A stretch of DNA of 64,000 nt from Chloracidobacterium thermophilum B (GTDB lineage: Bacteria > Acidobacteriota > Blastocatellia > Chloracidobacteriales > Chloracidobacteriaceae): assembly GCF_000226295.1 (NCBI RefSeq), contig NC_016024.1, positions 231,501-295,500 of the forward strand, given 5' to 3'. Each line of letters opens with the position of its first letter. Within the stretch, counting starts at the first letter, position 1. A model generated the notes under the pieces. It did not search any database and had not been told where the DNA came from. It worked only from the letters and a program-made list of their open reading frames with translations. Positions 4,901 through 10,650 of the stretch are shown in pieces. A program made the translations under genes and the position numbers.

Positions 4901-5377
4901 GCCATCTTCCGCGACATTGCCTGCCCGCCGGAAACACCTCCGCTGGAGCGGACCGAACAGCATCACGAACTGGTGGCACGCTGCGTCGAGATGGCGACGG
5001 AAGAGCATGTCACAGGCGGTCATCTTGGCAGCCTGCGCAGCGTACGGCGCAAACTCTGGGAGCGTTTGAACAAATACCGCGATCGCCTGAAAGCAGGTGA
5101 GGGCGAATTGCCCTTCGCCCCTGCCGTCTCACCCGACCGGCTTCAGCAGCTCGATGCGGTGCTCGACATGATTTGGTGGTATCCGCTCAAGAGCGCCGCC
5201 CGGGAAGCCATCAGCCGGCAAATGCGGCTGGGCATTGCCGACCCCGATCTGCTCGATATGGTTGCCCGCCGCGCCGGGGAGGACAACCTCTGTGAAATCC
5301 GCGAAAAAGAAGCGGATGAATCCGCCGGGCCGCACATCATCTGCTCATTGGGACTGATTGCCACGGGAGCGAAGTGA
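1916..5377 (+). CDS. PLD-nuclease/SNF2-family helicase fusion, defence-type
   Basis: A 1153-residue protein. The N-terminal 200 residues form a phospholipase D-like domain with HAK (H147, K149) followed by GSSNLT (from G167), the signature of PLD-type nucleases. A SNF2/superfamily 2 helicase core follows: DVVGLGKT (Walker A, 288-295), DESH box (360-363), LLTATP (motif III), and a C-terminal helicase lobe with VLIATDVLAEGQNLQ and QRAGRIDRIGQ. The architecture implies ATP-driven translocation on DNA coupled to a nuclease. The downstream methylase gene overlaps this one's stop codon, so the two are translationally coupled. That pairing resembles DISARM- and BREX-like restriction modules, reduced to two genes. 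The start is the first in-frame ATG preceded by a purine-rich gggaaagat. Function in defence is inferred. Confidence 0.85.
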   Translation: MPKIYDNIEWPLVEGLRRILPEAVACSFCVGYLNLRGWDQLADSIEHLGGSDEHHACRILVGMHRPPDEGMRLLQGIHRQTGATGQPSLPIDGPTAARLRRRITESFKEQLEFGVPSNAAERTLQQLSRQLRERKVFIRAFLRYPLHAKLYLVRREDTVTPLIGFVGSSNLTLAGLSRQGELNVDVVEQDAARKLQGWFDERWNDDLAVDLSSELADLIDQSWARKELIRPYLIYLRIAYHLSEDARQGEREFKVPAMFRDVLLDFQKAAVSLAAKKLHRHGGVLLGDVVGLGKTLMATAIARLMQEDSGDNTLVICPPKLAPMWDRYMQEYQIAGRVLSIGRAISELPGLPRYRLVIIDESHNLRNREGERYKAIQEYIAQNESRVLLLTATPYNKHYTDISNQLRLFLDEDRDLHVRPERYFQWLARKRGETEADFIARFQTSPHSLRAFEQSLFPEDWQDLMRLFLVRRTRQFIIRHYAEFDAASGRHYVRLNGQPHYFPARQPKRVNFAINEADPKDQYARLFRDEVVKVIEDLALPRYGLANYLKPKAEKGASAEEKRILANLNRAGKRLIGFCRINLFKRLESSGQSFLLSVQRHMVRNLITLHALEKNLPIPIGTQDAAMLDTAMSDADEAAVDISDPDNIEAAEATEPPAQKEKTWDEYQKRAGEIYKAYRQNHHDRFDWLNPRFFTKKLADALRSDTQALHRILESAGQWQPAADTKLQALLELLRTHRDEKVLVFTQFADTALYLHKQLRATGMEDVAVLTNQVGDPVTLSRRFSPSTNGGLAAGETGLRVLIATDVLAEGQNLQDAHIVVNYDLPWAIVRLIQRAGRIDRIGQKHDTILIYSFWPAEGVEKIIRLRQRLVARLQQHQEVIGSDDSFFGEAAAQRLRDLYTEKAGTLDDEGADEDIDLASLALQVWNSASADDRKACLSLPPIVSATRALRCSGERPFAPADGPPGVVTYLRYPDGTDALIRVDEHGSLVSQSLSAIFRDIACPPETPPLERTEQHHELVARCVEMATEEHVTGGHLGSLRSVRRKLWERLNKYRDRLKAGEGELPFAPAVSPDRLQQLDAVLDMIWWYPLKSAAREAISRQMRLGIADPDLLDMVARRAGEDNLCEIREKEADESAGPHIICSLGLIATGAK

Positions 5378-8300
5378 TGAACCATCTGGAGTGCATTCGT
5401 CAGATACTGGAATCATGCGGGCAACAGGACGTTCCGGCGCTGATCGCCTCACTTTTTTGCGAAAAACTCTTGTGGGGCCACCCGCCGGATGGGCTGAAGC
5501 CGTGCGAACTGCAACTGAACGCCCCTGACTCGTGCGAAGTGACCGCTGCACCCGTAGCCCAGATGAGCGGGTTGCCGGTGTACCTGATTGACTGGCCCGA
5601 GGACAGACTGCCCGGTGTCACGGCCCGCCGCGCCGTCCAGCGGGCGCTTGCGCCAACGCATGCCGAACACCTGCTGGTGTATGTCGCCCGGAACCGGCGC
5701 CAGCTTGCCTTCACATGGGCGCGCAAACGCTCGGACGGAAAGATTGAACTGCGCACCCTGCCCTACGAAGTCGGCTCGCCGGCCCGCACCACCGTCGAGC
5801 GGCTGGCGGAGCTGGCCTTCAGCCTCGATGAACTCCGCGCCGGCGAACCGCCGATTACCCGCGTCACCGATAAACTCACCACGGCGTTCAGCGTGGAGGC
5901 GGTCACAAAACGGTTCTATCAGGAAGTGGCCAACTGGTACTTCTGGGCACTGGATCACGTAAGCTTTCCCCAGGATGCGCCCAAAACCGACGGCAAGGAC
6001 CACGTAAGCCTCATCCGCCTGATCACCCGGCTTATCTTTTGCTGGTTTCTGAAAGAAAAGGGTCTCATTCCGGCAACGCTCTTCGATCCGAAATCGTTAC
6101 CCACAATGCTCAACGGCTTCGCGCCGAATGAAGCCGCATCTTCTGTCTTCTACAAAGCCATCCTGCAAAATCTTTTCTTTGCCACGCTGAACACGGAGAT
6201 GGGCAAGCGCGATTGGGCGGAGGACGGGCAGCACTTCATGGCGCACAACCTCTACCGGCACAGGGAACTGTTCCAGAACCCGGAGACAGCTCTGGAACTG
6301 TTCAGGGACATCCCCTTTCTCAACGGCGGTTTGTTCGAGTGCCTCGACCGTATCGAAGGCACGAAGGAGCAACCGCGCTACATTCGGATTGATGGTTTCT
6401 CCCGTCGCCCAGACAGCCAGCCGGTTGTGCCGGATGTGCTCTTCTTCGGCGATGAGCGGGAAGTTGATCTGAGACACGCCTACGGCGAAACACGCGACCG
6501 CTGCGCCCGCGTGCGTGGTCTGATCCATATCCTCGCTTCCTATAACTTCACCCTTCAGGAGCATACACCCTTCGATCAGGAAGTGGCGCTTGACCCGGAG
6601 TTGCTGGGGCAGGTTTTCGAGAACCTGCTGGCAGCCTACAACCCGGAAACCCGTACGACGGCGCGCAAAGCCACCGGCTCCTACTACACCCCGCGTGAGA
6701 TCGTGGACTACATGGTGGATGAAGCCCTCATCGCCAGCCTGAAAACCAGACTGGAAGCTACATTTCCCGACACCAAAAACGTTGAAGACCGTCTCCGCCA
6801 TCTTTTTGCGTACAACGATGAACCGCACCAGTTCACGGATGCTGAAGTTGAAGCGCTCATCCACAAACCGCACCAGTTCACGGATGATGAAGTTAAAGCG
6901 CTCATCCACGCCATTGACCATCTGAAGATACTCGATCCGGCGTGCGGGTCCGGCGCGTTCCCCATGGGCATCCTGCACCGGCTGGTGTTTGTTCTCGGCA
7001 AGCTCGACCCCAACAATGCGCGCTGGAAAGAGCGCCAGATTGCCAAGGCCCTGGAAATCCCCGATGCCACCGTACGCGATAAAGTCATTGCCGACATCAA
7101 AGCGTCCTTCACGTCCAACGAACTCGACTACGGGCGCAAGCTCTACCTGATTGAAAACTGCATTTACGGCGTGGACATCCAGCCTATCGCCGTGCAGATT
7201 GCCAAGCTGCGCTTCTTTATCTCGCTGGTGGTGGATCAGCGGGTCGATCCGGAGGCGGAAAACCGGGGTATTCGGGCGCTGCCCAATCTGGAAACGCGCT
7301 TCGTGGCGGCCAACACGCTCGTTGGCATTGCGCGGCCGCGGCAGCCTGCCTTACGCCATGAAGAGGTCAATACACTGGAGCGCAAACTGGCACAGGTGCG
7401 CGCCGCCCACTTCACCGCCAAAACGCCCGCCACCAAGCGCAAATACCGCGAATGCGATGCCACATTGCGGGCTGAGATTGCCGAAATACTGAAGACCGAC
7501 GGCTGGGACGACGAAACCGCCCGCCTGCTCGCCGCGTGGGACCCCTACGACCAGAACGCCTCGGCGTCCTTTTTCGATTCGGAGTGGATGTTTGGTCTTA
7601 AGGAAGGTTTCGATATCGTGATAGGGAACCCTCCTTATAGTGCAGAAATCTCATCTCTTGATAGGGAAAAGATCGCGTGTAAGGACACCAAGAACTCAAA
7701 TAGTGCAGCTATTTTCATTGATGTGGCAAAAAACAATCTTACACATCAGTGGGGTTTGGTCTCCTTTGTTGTACCTAAATCCCTTCTATACTCAGAACGC
7801 TGGTTTTCACTCGTCGAAGCTCTTGCGCCAAACACGAAAATTTTGGTTGATCTCGAACAGGCTTTTGAAAGCGTTCTACTTGAACAAGTTGTCTTTGTCT
7901 TTCAACATTCGCAGTCAGTTCCGCTTTACAGAGCCTATAAGTTCCATGGCTCAAAATTTATTCAGCGCGCATCAGTTCCAGTTTCGTGTGTAAGTCAATT
8001 TCATACATGGCCATGTGATGTGAGCGATGAAGAGCTGCGACTTGGGATGAAAATGAGTAAATCTGGTTTGTTTTTGCGCGATGTTTCGCGATCATTCCGA
8101 GGACTCCCACTTCAGCAGAAAATCTCAGATTACGGTGAAGAGCATAGAGATGTTTGTGTAATTGGTGGAAAAAATATTGTAAGATACGGTACCAATGGAT
8201 TTAAGGGGTACTTGAGAAAAGACGATCTAGATGGGGCGAGTAATAAAGTGAAGATGCTCCTGCAGCCAAAAGTAGTTTCGCAACAGATTATCGCGCATAT

Positions 8301-8715
8301 TCAGAACCCTAAACCGCACATTATGATCATTGCTTCAGTTGACCCAGATGGTAGCATCCTGGGTTTGGATACAGTAGAAAATACTATCCCAATAAATGCT
8401 CCCATCCATCTCAACATGATTGCTGCCTTGTTTAACTCATCACTAATCAATTGGTATGCATATAGATTCATTTACTGTGCTGCTGTGAGGACGATGCATT
8501 TCGATGAGCACTACATAGGCAAAATTCCTCTTCCACTTGACTACCGATACAAACAAGATGATATTGTTGCATTAGTAGATAAAATTCTCGATGCCAAACG
8601 CGCTAACCCCAACGCCGATACCTCTGCTCTGGAACGCGAGATTGACGAACACGTCTATCGTCTTTACGGGCTGACGCCGGATGAAATCAGGATTGTGGAA
8701 GAGAGTTTGAAGTAA
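5377..8715 (+). CDS. Eco57I-like N6-adenine DNA methyltransferase (restriction-modification type)
   Basis: A 1112-residue class I SAM-dependent methylase. Motif I is DPACGSGAF (D520) and the catalytic motif IV is NPPY (751-754), the N6-adenine type. A long N-terminal domain of about 380 residues and a conserved LLGQVFENLL...TGSYYTPREIVDYMV block precede the core, as in large Eco57I/PglX-like enzymes. I see no obvious PD-(D/E)xK nuclease motif. Residues 482-511 are two in-frame copies of a 15-residue unit. From about 7600 to 8570, the probable target-recognition domain, base composition becomes clearly more AT-rich and codon use changes, then returns to normal for the last 45 codons. The ATG overlaps the helicase stop (TGATG); a GTG one codon earlier is possible. 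It presumably marks host DNA so that the partner helicase/nuclease spares it. Confidence 0.9.
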   Translation: MNHLECIRQILESCGQQDVPALIASLFCEKLLWGHPPDGLKPCELQLNAPDSCEVTAAPVAQMSGLPVYLIDWPEDRLPGVTARRAVQRALAPTHAEHLLVYVARNRRQLAFTWARKRSDGKIELRTLPYEVGSPARTTVERLAELAFSLDELRAGEPPITRVTDKLTTAFSVEAVTKRFYQEVANWYFWALDHVSFPQDAPKTDGKDHVSLIRLITRLIFCWFLKEKGLIPATLFDPKSLPTMLNGFAPNEAASSVFYKAILQNLFFATLNTEMGKRDWAEDGQHFMAHNLYRHRELFQNPETALELFRDIPFLNGGLFECLDRIEGTKEQPRYIRIDGFSRRPDSQPVVPDVLFFGDEREVDLRHAYGETRDRCARVRGLIHILASYNFTLQEHTPFDQEVALDPELLGQVFENLLAAYNPETRTTARKATGSYYTPREIVDYMVDEALIASLKTRLEATFPDTKNVEDRLRHLFAYNDEPHQFTDAEVEALIHKPHQFTDDEVKALIHAIDHLKILDPACGSGAFPMGILHRLVFVLGKLDPNNARWKERQIAKALEIPDATVRDKVIADIKASFTSNELDYGRKLYLIENCIYGVDIQPIAVQIAKLRFFISLVVDQRVDPEAENRGIRALPNLETRFVAANTLVGIARPRQPALRHEEVNTLERKLAQVRAAHFTAKTPATKRKYRECDATLRAEIAEILKTDGWDDETARLLAAWDPYDQNASASFFDSEWMFGLKEGFDIVIGNPPYSAEISSLDREKIACKDTKNSNSAAIFIDVAKNNLTHQWGLVSFVVPKSLLYSERWFSLVEALAPNTKILVDLEQAFESVLLEQVVFVFQHSQSVPLYRAYKFHGSKFIQRASVPVSCVSQFHTWPCDVSDEELRLGMKMSKSGLFLRDVSRSFRGLPLQQKISDYGEEHRDVCVIGGKNIVRYGTNGFKGYLRKDDLDGASNKVKMLLQPKVVSQQIIAHIQNPKPHIMIIASVDPDGSILGLDTVENTIPINAPIHLNMIAALFNSSLINWYAYRFIYCAAVRTMHFDEHYIGKIPLPLDYRYKQDDIVALVDKILDAKRANPNADTSALEREIDEHVYRLYGLTPDEIRIVEESLK
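6820..6909 (+). repeat. 45-bp in-frame tandem duplication inside the methylase gene
   Basis: Two adjacent 45-base copies (6820-6864 and 6865-6909) encode EPHQFTDAEVEALIH and KPHQFTDDEVKALIH. They differ at three codons, so the duplication is fairly recent. It lies just before motif I of the methylase. Confidence 0.9.
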
Positions 8716-8905
8716 CGACCGTGGGGCGGTCTGTAAACGATGCATGTCCATGCCATGCGATGACGTAGGATCGGACGAATGGCTGGTTACGCCCAACCGT
8801 CAACCGCGCTGTACCCTGCAACCATCCCTGTGCTGCGCCCGTGTCTGCATCCCAACCGCCCCGACCACGATTGAGACAACGCAAAACGACGCGAAAATCG
8901 TACCA

Positions 8906-9829
8906 ATGCCCTACGACCCTGCCAGACATCACCGTCGTTCCATTCGCCTGCAAGGGTACGATTACGCCCGGCCAGGGGCGTATTTCGTCACCATCGTCAC
9001 GCAGGGGCGGGCGTGTCTGTTCGGCGAGGTGGTGGCGGGCGAGATGCGAATGAACGACGCCGGGCGGATGGTTCATCATGTGTGGGATGAATTGGCGTTG
9101 TTTTATGAGGGCGTACAGACCGATGCGTTCATTGTGATGCCCAACCATGTGCACGGCATCATCATTTTGACCGGCAACGTACGGGCAACCCCCCACGTCC
9201 ACCCCGATGAAATGGCCGTACGGGCAACCCCCCGTGGTTGCCCCACAACCCCCCGTGGTTGCCCCGATGAAATGAATGCAACCCCCCGCGTCCACCCCGA
9301 CGAAATGAACGTAAACGTAGGGGCAACCCCCCGTGGTTGCCCCGATCATCCCCGTGATTGCCCCGATCATCCCCGTGATTGCCCCGATGAAATGGCCGTA
9401 CGGGCAACCCCCCGTGGTTGCCCCGATCCCCAATCCGCCCCAACCGCCCCGTCACATCCCCCAACGGCGCAACCGCATCCCCCGATGGGGCAGGCACGGG
9501 GGCCTGCCCCTACCGTTGCCCCGGCCGCCCCGTCACATCCCCCGATGGGGCAACCACGGGGGGTTGCCCCTACGTTGGGATTGCCGGATGTGGTGCACCG
9601 GTTCAAAACCATGACCACCAAACGCTACGCCGACGGGGTACGCGCGAACCAATGGCCACCCTTTCCCGGCCGCCTGTGGCAACGCAACTACTACGAACAC
9701 ATCATCCGTGACGACCAATCCTGGCAGCGCATCCGCGAATACATCCTGACCAACCCCCTGCGCTGGCATCTGGATCGTGAACGGGACATCGGCGCTGACC
9801 CATTGGATGTGATTGGGGACGGCACGTGA
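8906..9829 (+). CDS. REP-associated tyrosine transposase (Y1/IS200-like) with repeat-derived insert
   Basis: A 307-residue protein starting at MPYDPARHHRRSIRLQGYDY, the usual N-terminus of this family. The HUH-type metal-binding motif is PNHVHG (79-84) and the catalytic tyrosine lies in WQRNYYEH (Y262/Y263), followed by the family's C-terminal REYILTNPLRW. Such enzymes cut single-stranded DNA at palindromic REP hairpins. Between about residues 91 and 225 the protein is interrupted by low-complexity ATPRGCPDEM-like repeats encoded by palindromic DNA; without them it would be about 172 residues, the normal size. Whether the protein is active is unclear, since the insert separates HUH and Tyr. 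An upstream in-frame ATG at 8744 would add 54 residues with no family resemblance, so I prefer 8906. Confidence 0.85.
   Translation: MPYDPARHHRRSIRLQGYDYARPGAYFVTIVTQGRACLFGEVVAGEMRMNDAGRMVHHVWDELALFYEGVQTDAFIVMPNHVHGIIILTGNVRATPHVHPDEMAVRATPRGCPTTPRGCPDEMNATPRVHPDEMNVNVGATPRGCPDHPRDCPDHPRDCPDEMAVRATPRGCPDPQSAPTAPSHPPTAQPHPPMGQARGPAPTVAPAAPSHPPMGQPRGVAPTLGLPDVVHRFKTMTTKRYADGVRANQWPPFPGRLWQRNYYEHIIRDDQSWQRIREYILTNPLRWHLDRERDIGADPLDVIGDGT
9166..9590 (+). repeat. Palindromic repeat cluster inside the transposase gene
   Basis: Multiple copies of a gggcaacc-cccgt-ggttgccc hairpin and relatives (cccgtgattgccccgatcat, ccccgatggggcaggcacgg) are strung together in frame. Some copies carry the GTAGGGGC/GCCCCTAC ends seen in the intergenic palindrome at 9900 and in rpoD. 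Copies are often separated by gatgaaatg, encoding DEM. Confidence 0.85.
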
Positions 9830-9899: not shown

Positions 9900-9929
9900 G
9901 GTAGGGGCGACCGGCCGGTCGCCCCTACC
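9900..9929. repeat. Perfect 30-bp palindrome (REP-like)
   Basis: The left half GGTAGGGGCGACCGG is followed immediately by its exact reverse complement. It shares GTAGGGGCG...CGCCCCTAC ends with palindromes in the neighbouring transposase gene and in rpoD. It lies 70 bp downstream of the transposase gene, fitting a REP element that such transposases recognise. Confidence 0.85.
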
Positions 9930-9986
9930 ACCCATCACAACCATAGCCATGCATTACGGCGTCTCCCCAACCGCGATGCACAACGC

Positions 9987-10196
9987 GCGGGCGGGACGCC
10001 CGCGCGCCCAGGCGCGTCGCGTTAGCGACGATTGAATTTAGCCCGGCGTTTCAACGCCGGGAAAACGGTGTCACATCGCCCCGCGTCGCGTAGCGACGCC
10101 TGAAATCCATCGTGGGTTCAAACCCGCGACGGATTTCAACCCCCGAATCGTGTGATGCCCCATGCCCACGCGGGCAAGATGCCCGCGCTCCCAGGA
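9987..10196. repeat. Composite palindromic repeat, downstream copy 1
   Basis: Same ordered palindromes as at 1166-1375 and nearly identical in sequence. The terminal GC palindrome has changed to cgggcaagatgcccg. The flanks 9830-9986 and 10651-10785 hold no gene that I can see. Confidence 0.85.
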
Positions 10197-10203
10197 AAGG
10201 ATA

Positions 10204-10400
10204 CCCGCGCGCCCAGGCGCGTCGCGTTAGCGACGATTGAATTTAGCCCGGCGTTTCAACGCCGGGAAAACGGTGTCACATCGCCCCGCGTCGCGTAGCG
10301 ACGCCTGAAATCCATCGTGGGTTCAAACCCGCGACGGATTTCAACCCCCGGATTGTGTGATGCCCCATGCCCACGCGGGCGGGACGCCCGCGCTCCCAGG
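10204..10400. repeat. Composite palindromic repeat, downstream copy 2
   Basis: Direct repeat of the preceding copy, lacking its first few bases. It contains the GTCGCGTTAGCGAC, CCCGGCGTTTCAACGCCGGG and GTCGCGTAGCGAC palindromes in order. Confidence 0.85.
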
Positions 10401-10466
10401 AAAGGACGCCCGCGCTCCCAGGAAAGGACGCCCGCGCTCCCAGGAAAGGACGCCCGCGCTCCCAGG
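10401..10466. repeat. 22-bp tandem repeat, three copies
   Basis: Three consecutive copies of aaaggacgcccgcgctcccagg plus one bases after (10401, 10423, 10445), formed by local expansion of the junction between composite copies 2 and 3. Confidence 0.85.
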
Positions 10467-10650
10467 CGCGTCGCGTTAGCGACGATTGAATTTAGCCCGG
10501 CGTTTCAACGCCGGGGAAACGGTGTCACATCGCCCCGCGTCGCGTAGCGACGCCTGAAATCCACCGTGGGTTCAAACCCGCGACGGATTTCAACCCCCGA
10601 ATCGTGTGATGCCCCATGCCCACGCGGGCGGGACGCCCGCGCTCCCAGGG
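10467..10650. repeat. Composite palindromic repeat, downstream copy 3
   Basis: Third downstream copy of the composite unit, ending in gcgggcgggacgcccgcgctcccagg. The unique sequence leading to panD begins after it. Confidence 0.85.

Follow-up and report, generated by a model that had tools for sequence, protein, structure and literature searches.

How does a transposase gene come to hold, inside its own open reading frame, palindromes of the kind such an enzyme may act on, and are these palindromes tied to the enzyme that surrounds them? The question is raised by a gene at positions 8906–9829 (forward strand) of the window, by which we mean the whole 64,000-nucleotide stretch of Chloracidobacterium thermophilum B DNA analysed here (G000:C1:231501-295500, in a genome of 3.695 Mb on two contigs). 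The ORF runs for 307 codons from an ATG at 8906 to a stop at 9827–9829; a longer ORF in the same frame begins at 8744. Its translation, profiles, an AlphaFold2 model and fold matches including 4er8 identify the 307-residue product as an intact HUH/Y1 REP-associated tyrosine transposase (RAYT, TnpAREP). The HUH motif PNHVHG (9140–9157, forward strand, from the translation and the letters themselves), one tyrosine in YIxxNP and the Y1 fold are all present. Residues M78-H81 and H83 are invariant in the homologue alignment (A4), and the presumed catalytic Tyr279, in YILTNP (codon at 9740–9742, forward strand), aligns with the YIYINP tyrosine of 4er8, which we take to be the catalytic Y115. The motif WQRNYYEHIIR (9677–9709, forward strand) also aligns to 4er8, as the counterpart of the W94-R104 region of E. 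coli TnpAREP, described as holding residues that contact GTAG (PMC6006769).

The split of the domain is presumably why family profiles score below their cut-offs: the NCBIfam model NF047646 (REP-associated tyrosine transposase) hits two separate stretches of the ORF at 61.1 bits against a curated cut-off of 80, and Pfam Y1_Tnp matches the C-terminal half alone at 21.6 bits against 23. The IS200/IS605 test, NF033573, taken by profile score alone, gives 13.7 bits against a cut-off of 55. The AlphaFold2 model has a confident core (block means of pLDDT 85–97 over residues 21–90 and 221–290), with helix αC at residues 226–248, and block means of 37–57 over residues 101–220. Its seven Foldseek matches at E ≤0.001 are all to the ISDra2 transposase, with E. 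coli TnpAREP (4er8) eighth (E 1.1e-3); for the model of a shorter homologue (L056, mean pLDDT 89) 4er8 is the top match (Z 11.8, rmsd 3.7, 136 residues aligned). Searching the PDB by phmmer with a single homologue gave chance-level matches only, and a search with a homologue profile recovered 4er8.

The low-scoring residues belong to a REP-derived in-frame insert of ~138 residues (89–226; positions 9170–9583, forward strand), predicted to be disordered, which runs from the HUH strand to helix αC and is supported by repeats, shuffles, the AlphaFold2 model and the fold. It is encoded by GTAG-footed hairpin repeats and their inverted copies. The hairpin unit, GTAGGGGCAACC-CCCCGT-GGTTGCCCC, also written GTA-GGGGCAACC-CCCCGT-GGTTGCCCC, forms as single-stranded DNA a 9-bp stem with a 6-nt loop; the stem opens with G-C pairs, and its first base is the final G of the GTAG foot. 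Two abutting units lie at 9217–9265 (starts 9222 and 9243; the first has GTAC instead of GTAG, the second is partial), followed by a unit with a GTAG foot at 9317–9343 (unit match from 9321) and one with a GTAC foot at 9397–9424 (unit match from 9402), all on the forward strand. Inverted units, with CTAC at the outer end, occupy 9487–9513 (diverged arms; repeat family I4) and 9547–9573 (repeat I1, 30 nt, 100%) on the reverse strand. The units at 9317–9343 and 9547–9573 form a REPIN-like inverted pair, with GTAG at the outer end of the forward unit and CTAC at the outer ends of inverted ones. In carrying several REP units in both orientations, the gene is unlike most of its relatives.

Perfect inverted repeats in the linker reach 30 nt. 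In 300 synonymous-codon shuffles encoding the same protein the longest inverted repeat averages 11.6 nt with a maximum of 24, and in 300 shuffles of codon order the maximum is 18; as none of the 300 synonymous shuffles reaches 30 nt, chance palindromes are rejected as the source of the linker. Folded as single-stranded DNA, the insert segment has a z of -6.3. Copies of its direct repeats (families D3, D4 and D5) are spaced by multiples of three throughout, as the open frame demands, and the insert has tandem periods of 21, 33 and 99 nt. This array is best explained by a REP dimer that was inserted and then duplicated in tandem.

A pair of paralogues shows that insert is the right term. Genome G041 carries two RAYTs of the window gene's subtype, L222 and L218, ~93% identical (92.7% and 94.5%) on the two sides of a 126-nt in-frame block. 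This block, an inverted REP dimer (GTAGGGGCAACCCCCTGTGGTTGCCC..GGGCAACCACAGGGGGTTGCCCCTAC, nearly the window's unit), is present in L222 and absent from L218. L218 is frameshifted elsewhere in the gene; both genes have related REPs upstream, and L222 has them downstream as well. The dimer may have been gained in L222 or lost from L218. The gap between HUH and WQ is 44 residues in the repeat-free L218, and 43, 36, 38 and 68 residues in the hairpin-free loci L249, L252, L255 and L259, respectively. The original prediction, that the catalytic halves are parted by about 135 palindrome-encoded residues with the frame kept, therefore stands: ~138 residues, a 30-nt inverted repeat and an open ORF bear it out in the window gene, and the shorter homologues, together with the in-frame difference between L222 and L218, confirm both the insert and the preservation of frame.

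To place the insert among its relatives, we scanned one genome per species with a query that contained the palindrome linker, and kept the 80 best loci, which come from many phyla; 78 of them entered the linker count (L066 and L105 were left out, having no motif pair by the patterns used). A GTAGGGGC..GCCCCTAC-like palindrome (≤2 mismatches per foot) lies between the paired motifs in 62 of the 78. Linkers hold 64 of the 117 palindrome matches at these loci, though they make up 11.3 of 428 kb; a further 10 matches lie elsewhere in the ORF and 43 in the flanks of 21 of the 78 loci. Because the first query itself held a palindrome linker, the search was repeated with a linker-free C-terminal alignment of 15 sequences (themselves palindrome carriers), which matched 137 of the 396 genomes of the window's phylum. 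Thirty loci were fetched (L231-L260), and 21 of the 25 readable ones have a hairpin score of at least 7, the other four being L249, L252, L255 and L259; L242, L245, L246, L253 and L254, with no HUH and WQ motif in one frame, were left out. Viral contigs gave no relatives with the window gene's C-half as query and one with the C-half alignment. The linker of one homologue (L134, G006:C1:313300-316900) extends to 344 residues, with tandem GSSVGSSA- and NTVDTAGV-like repeats flanking one intact palindrome.

The insert is thus, as first proposed, made of the kind of hairpin that such transposases act on, namely GTAG-footed REP units in frame. It was also called unusual, and this we have to correct: in-frame REPs between the HuH and Y motifs are a published hallmark of TnpAREP subclass 2.4, as described by Quentin et al. 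2018 (PMC6006769), and 62 of the 78 homologue loci carry one. The refuting condition set beforehand, that all homologues share one linker with no relation to intergenic palindromes, fails: most of them have the linker, yet this is the palindrome itself, and intergenic matches are found in part of the genomes.

Judged from the sequences compared, the DNA palindrome is conserved at this point of the gene and the peptide is not. One palindrome is read in different frames, the arm GTAT giving VGAYCNTPL or RGVLQYAPT, and the arm GACCGG giving VGATGRSPL or RGDRPVAPT in different homologues. An exact GTAGGGGC is present in 86 of 110 rows, where frame 0 is used 61 times, frame 1 25 times and the frame that reads TAG never. 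In 23 distinct even palindromes (28-mers), selected as loopless, 136 of the 138 inner cells are paired, with two to four pair types at each of the six inner pairs. The use of two frames, and arms that vary yet stay paired, argue that the DNA palindrome is what has been kept, and a peptide-level explanation of the linker is rejected, the same palindrome being read in two frames.

The window unit itself is confined to its gene: a search of the whole 3.7 Mb genome, allowing ≤3 mismatches, found 5 sites, all in this gene and none elsewhere. A cognate REP in many dispersed copies is a common, not universal, feature of RAYTs and was not found for the window unit, so that the genome shows no sign of mobilisation by the window enzyme. 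Related palindromes do occur at other places: the looser pattern GTAGGGGC..GCCCC has 11 + 11 strand matches in the genome, against 0 for a reversed-pattern control. A second RAYT of this type lies at C2:641006-641635 (L006, L138), with a shorter linker than that of the window gene and 21-nt units ending in GTAGGGGCGACCGGCCGGTCGCCCCTAC. Its 25-base core has a sole other exact copy in the genome, ~70 bp downstream of the window gene, where a double-foot palindrome of another type (GACCGG arm) at 9900–9929 has a core identical to C2:641360-641387; near copies, differing from it at 1–3 bases, are found at C1:2094183 and C1:1384580. The window gene is therefore accompanied by a palindrome of the other enzyme's type, and we reject it as the window gene's own unit on account of its GACCGG arm and the confinement of that unit to the gene. 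The claim that similar palindromes lie right next to the gene is true in a loose sense only, since 9900–9929 and the array at 9973–10649 are of different types. This array, BIME-like and situated behind the RAYT, consists of three copies of a 223-nt repeat with several other palindromes (e.g. GCGCGGGCGGGACGCCCGCG and CCCGGCGTTTCAACGCCGGG). Parts of a 110-nt array at 496–816 are similar to its repeats, and a 45-nt tandem duplication is found at 6821–6909, within an Eco57I-type methylase gene.

Dispersed palindromes were counted in 42 genomes, of which 39 come from the 80 homologue genomes and three belong to the window's family. Of these genomes 40 contain the strict pattern GTAGGGGCN{4,24}GCCCCTAC, with 588 forward matches against 6 for the reversed control and 1 to 173 matches per genome. 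Eight genomes have a single copy; by coordinates it sits in a RAYT linker in five (G011, G016, G029, G035 and G036), and the other three have a known RAYT locus without a strict match. Outside RAYT genes and their flanks, 7 of 49 sampled copies from 17 genomes match the six-base arm of a known RAYT of their own genome (2.4 expected, P 0.011), and 12 of the 49 match its four-base arm; for this comparison RAYT arms were entered by hand, and G040 and G014 are represented by some of their copies. Agreement is clear for GGGTTT in G032 and G040, and no RAYT with the arm in question was found among the known RAYTs for the abundant GAGGCA (G014) and GCAGCA (G040). The genome of L070 (G018) contains 173 strict palindromes within 1.5 Mb, and those listed comprise at least six arm types; the RAYT C-half has only three matches there, of which one is weak and another contains a stop.

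A closer tie between palindrome and enzyme is suggested by a comparison of 100 RAYTs in which the opening six bases of the inner arm were set against the protein sequence. The RAYTs compared derive from 110 distinct rows, 14 of them without an automatic arm, of which 4 were set by hand (L062, L076, L222 and L236) and the others dropped (L095, L108, L113, L210, L216, L221, L252, L255, L259 and L261). The protein module considered is formed by the six residues preceding the FK of αC, and was re-cut by hand in L110, L123, L159 and L248 (wrong FK) after the table had been seen. In the window gene it reads PDVVHR (residues 227–232, codons at 9584–9601, forward strand), at the start of helix αC, and it co-varies with REP type across homologues. 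GRLIGA goes with the arms GGTTCG/GATTCG, GAI[IV]RA mostly with GCAGCG/GGAGCG, GA[IM][IV]RG mostly with GTAT.., PT[IV][IV]R. with ACGG/ACGA/ACAG, [PS]TI[IV]RL with ACGT, ..AG mostly with ..CGG arms, [SPT]E[IV]VR. with GGGTTT, and PDV[VM]HR with the window-type arm. Palindrome and module do not overlap, and are at least 16 nt apart (median 37) in the 49 loci with a strict palindrome.

The partial Mantel correlation of arm and module given the rest of the protein is 0.469 (0/2000 permutations, null maximum 0.091), and that of arm and rest given the module is 0.135 (1/2000). Given the protein ends, the module reaches 0.501 (0/1000) and a 25-column block before HUH 0.403, with -0.055 for the ends given the centre; the partial correlation is 0.566 among 66 perfect palindromes and 0.461 among 18 rows from the linker-free query. 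Nearest-neighbour prediction of the four-base arm is correct for 56.2 of 89 rows from the module, 24.5 from the rest and 35.1 from a 13-column block at the end of αB, shuffled labels giving 8%. As this block was picked from a scan of 102 six-column windows and the module was also picked after inspection, the permutation counts are exploratory, and they ignore phylogeny. The arm labels of 89 rows were also placed on a linker-free tree, built quickly and poorly resolved (stars on 9 of its 107 inner branches). They require 45 changes there, whereas 300 shuffles average 64.6 and never fall below 57; with the weak link between arm and rest, this non-random distribution means that shared descent explains part of the covariation. 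At an exploratory level, then, the inner arm co-varies with six residues at the start of αC and the block preceding HUH, and far less with the remaining protein. From its place between HUH and WQ, αC would correspond to the DNA-binding helix α3 of E. coli TnpAREP, which (K82) is described as contacting the bulged base of the REP stem (PMC8266576).

One orthologue pair differs in just these parts. L138, in the window genome, and L132, in its congener G001, are orthologues by synteny, with matching flanks that are 96% identical over 1.2 kb including the gene start and 86% over 1.3 kb including the gene end. The gene ends are 92–100% identical in most 60-nt windows and the centre 44–75%. The differing centres of L132 and L138 (259 and 334 nt), comprising the αB end, HUH strand, palindrome and αC start, share family-level likeness only: L138 combines the arm GACCGG with the module ASFVAG, L132 the arm GGTTCG with GRLIGA, and their frames differ. 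By their ends the two genes are each other's nearest. As to the centre, the nearest relatives of L132 are L082, L141, L114 and L096 (GATT/GGTT arms), and those of L138 are L088, L054 and L059 (GGACGG/GACCGG arms). The simplest account of this pattern would be one recombination that swapped the specificity region and the embedded REP together. Six different-arm pairs have an ends distance <0.2, and wholesale replacement of the centre is seen in L132/L138 only (0.65); the other five pairs (0.23–0.32) differ little there, so that arms also change with few residue changes. The central swap is a single case, seen at L132/L138 and not at the window gene.

Taken together, the best reading, and in our view probably the right one, is that the window gene has an exchangeable specificity cassette of a subclass 2.4 RAYT that carries its own putative substrate. 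The loop between the HUH strand (β3) and αC would be a tolerated, disordered site where GTAG-footed REPs sit in frame, and in the window gene one REP lineage would have multiplied there, through insertion and tandem duplication, into a REPIN-like inverted array. The embedded palindrome would be of the kind matched to the enzyme, lying shortly upstream of the αC codons that are tied, with the αB-end block, to the arm. The αB end, HUH, palindrome and αC start would be exchanged between RAYT genes as one cassette. We infer that the WQ..R motif reads the GTAG of the single-stranded hairpin and αC with the αB end its stem or loop, the embedded hairpin being the likely cognate substrate. Placed inside the enzyme's own gene, the hairpin would stay with its enzyme during transfer and recombination, and may act as the seed copy from which REPs spread in a new genome.

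Whether the RAYT genes of this branch are in general self-contained cassettes, with the cognate REP beside the codons that recognise it, exchanged jointly and seeding a new REP family after transfer, is a more tentative matter, and we hold it to be slightly less likely than not. If true, the REP preference of an uncharacterised RAYT could be predicted from the palindrome in its own gene, enzyme and REP would be inseparable by transfer, a new specificity could arise from one recombination event, and a recognition code would become directly testable for many uncharacterised RAYTs. The proposal bears on the way in which the DNA preference of a REP transposase is maintained, altered and spread.

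The embedded palindromes could instead have accumulated passively in cis, the enzyme or its paralogues in trans dropping REPs in and near the gene, where in-frame copies in a tolerant loop survive without function and a match shows which enzyme inserted them. REPs do also flank RAYT genes, in the 43 flank matches at 21 of 78 loci, the loop is predicted to be disordered, a palindrome of the paralogue's type lies beside the window gene, and little impact on the protein is suggested by Quentin et al. 2018 (PMC6006769). However, the sole strict copy sits in the RAYT linker in five of the eight single-copy genomes, so abundance does not explain retention; arms remain near-perfect palindromes even in strongly diverged proteins; and palindrome and recognition residues changed together in L132/L138. 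We regard passive accumulation as a serious possibility, if a somewhat doubtful one. A role of the palindrome as an mRNA or transcription element, where the hairpin of the transcript would let the RAYT protein or a nuclease limit RAYT expression, is unlikely, since covariation of arm and αC would not be expected unless the same protein surface binds RNA. Such an element would fit the strong hairpins (folded as DNA), their conserved position within the ORF and, as described in PMC8450116, the case of ISPpu9, a REP-inserted IS whose transposase is controlled by sRNAs and the structure of its 5'-UTR. Expansion of a proline-rich, disordered loop by replication slippage, with palindromes as a by-product of codon usage, would suit the 21-, 33- and 99-nt tandem periods and the mostly tandem growth of the 344-residue linker of L134, and is nevertheless very improbable given that 0/300 synonymous shuffles reach the observed inverted repeat, that the same palindrome encodes unrelated peptides in two frames, that GTAG feet are present and that the same kinds of palindrome occur outside RAYT genes in relatives.

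Whole RAYT domains are in turn nested in other genes, in frame and with no stop, namely in acetyl-CoA synthetase-like genes of six genomes of the window's phylum and a PriA gene of one (L262 1288-4350(-), L268 356-3376, L269 666-3572, L270 998-4174(-); L265 672-3548(-), L266 220-2940(-); L267 1839-4856). In four genomes the acetyl-CoA synthetase-like hosts are entered at apparently the same point, between ISPTL(V/I)R and LRI(F/L)ASTGEP, and repeated peptides, e.g. (S)ADTPVR.. or SGDT.VP.., border the nested RAYTs; nothing on RAYTs nested in these two kinds of gene was found in the literature searched. DNA methyltransferase genes also host RAYTs (L140 924-4679, on C1 of the window genome; L139 491-4255, in G001; L272 1281-4877; L264 1060-6492, in G006; L263; L271; L273). 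By Pfam the hosts are of DUF1156 type in L140 and L272, L139 is a RAYT in a 1255-aa frame, and the hosts of L263, L264, L271 and L273 are of Eco57I type. By eye and Pfam, L264 resembles the window's neighbouring gene at 5374–8715, which is without a RAYT and seems to be its empty counterpart. To judge by these nested RAYTs, residence within other reading frames may be tolerated, or exploited, by the family on a wider scale.

Placed by its features, the window gene is of the TnpAREP subclass 2.4 kind, with an in-frame REP between β3 (HUH) and αC, a GTAG foot and a 9-bp stem; double-foot REPs are found in homologues. The subclass as described (PMC6006769) has the same HUH..Y1 core with WQ and YIxxNP, a variable insertion domain between β3 and αC, in-frame REPs between HuH and Y, and both canonical and double-foot (GT[AG]G..C[TC]AC) REPs. 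Unlike that description, the window gene has an array of ~138 residues, with several REP units in both orientations and no dispersed copies. E. coli TnpAREP (PDB 4ER8; subclass 2.2), which recognises a GTAG-footed single-stranded hairpin (PMC8266576), is like the window protein in fold, HUH motif, the region of W94, Q95, E100, H101 and R104, and YI..NP; it is unlike it in that its REPs are described as flanking the gene and carrying a bulge, and its C-terminal tail as contacting GTAG. Coevolution of RAYTs and REPs was reported from phylogeny by Nunvar et al. 2010, where syntenic RAYTs are described as evolving faster than their neighbours. The literature searched held no report of a relation between arm and αC or of central cassette exchange; as far as this search goes both would be new, and the in-frame REP habit is already known. 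Palindromes that lie in frame and encode tens of residues also characterise intragenic REPs and the Rickettsia palindromic elements (Di Nocera et al. 2013, PMC3733652). The host genes named there are others, e.g. uvrA and dnaE, whereas here the host is the transposase itself, the palindromes occupy one point of the protein and their type appears matched to it.
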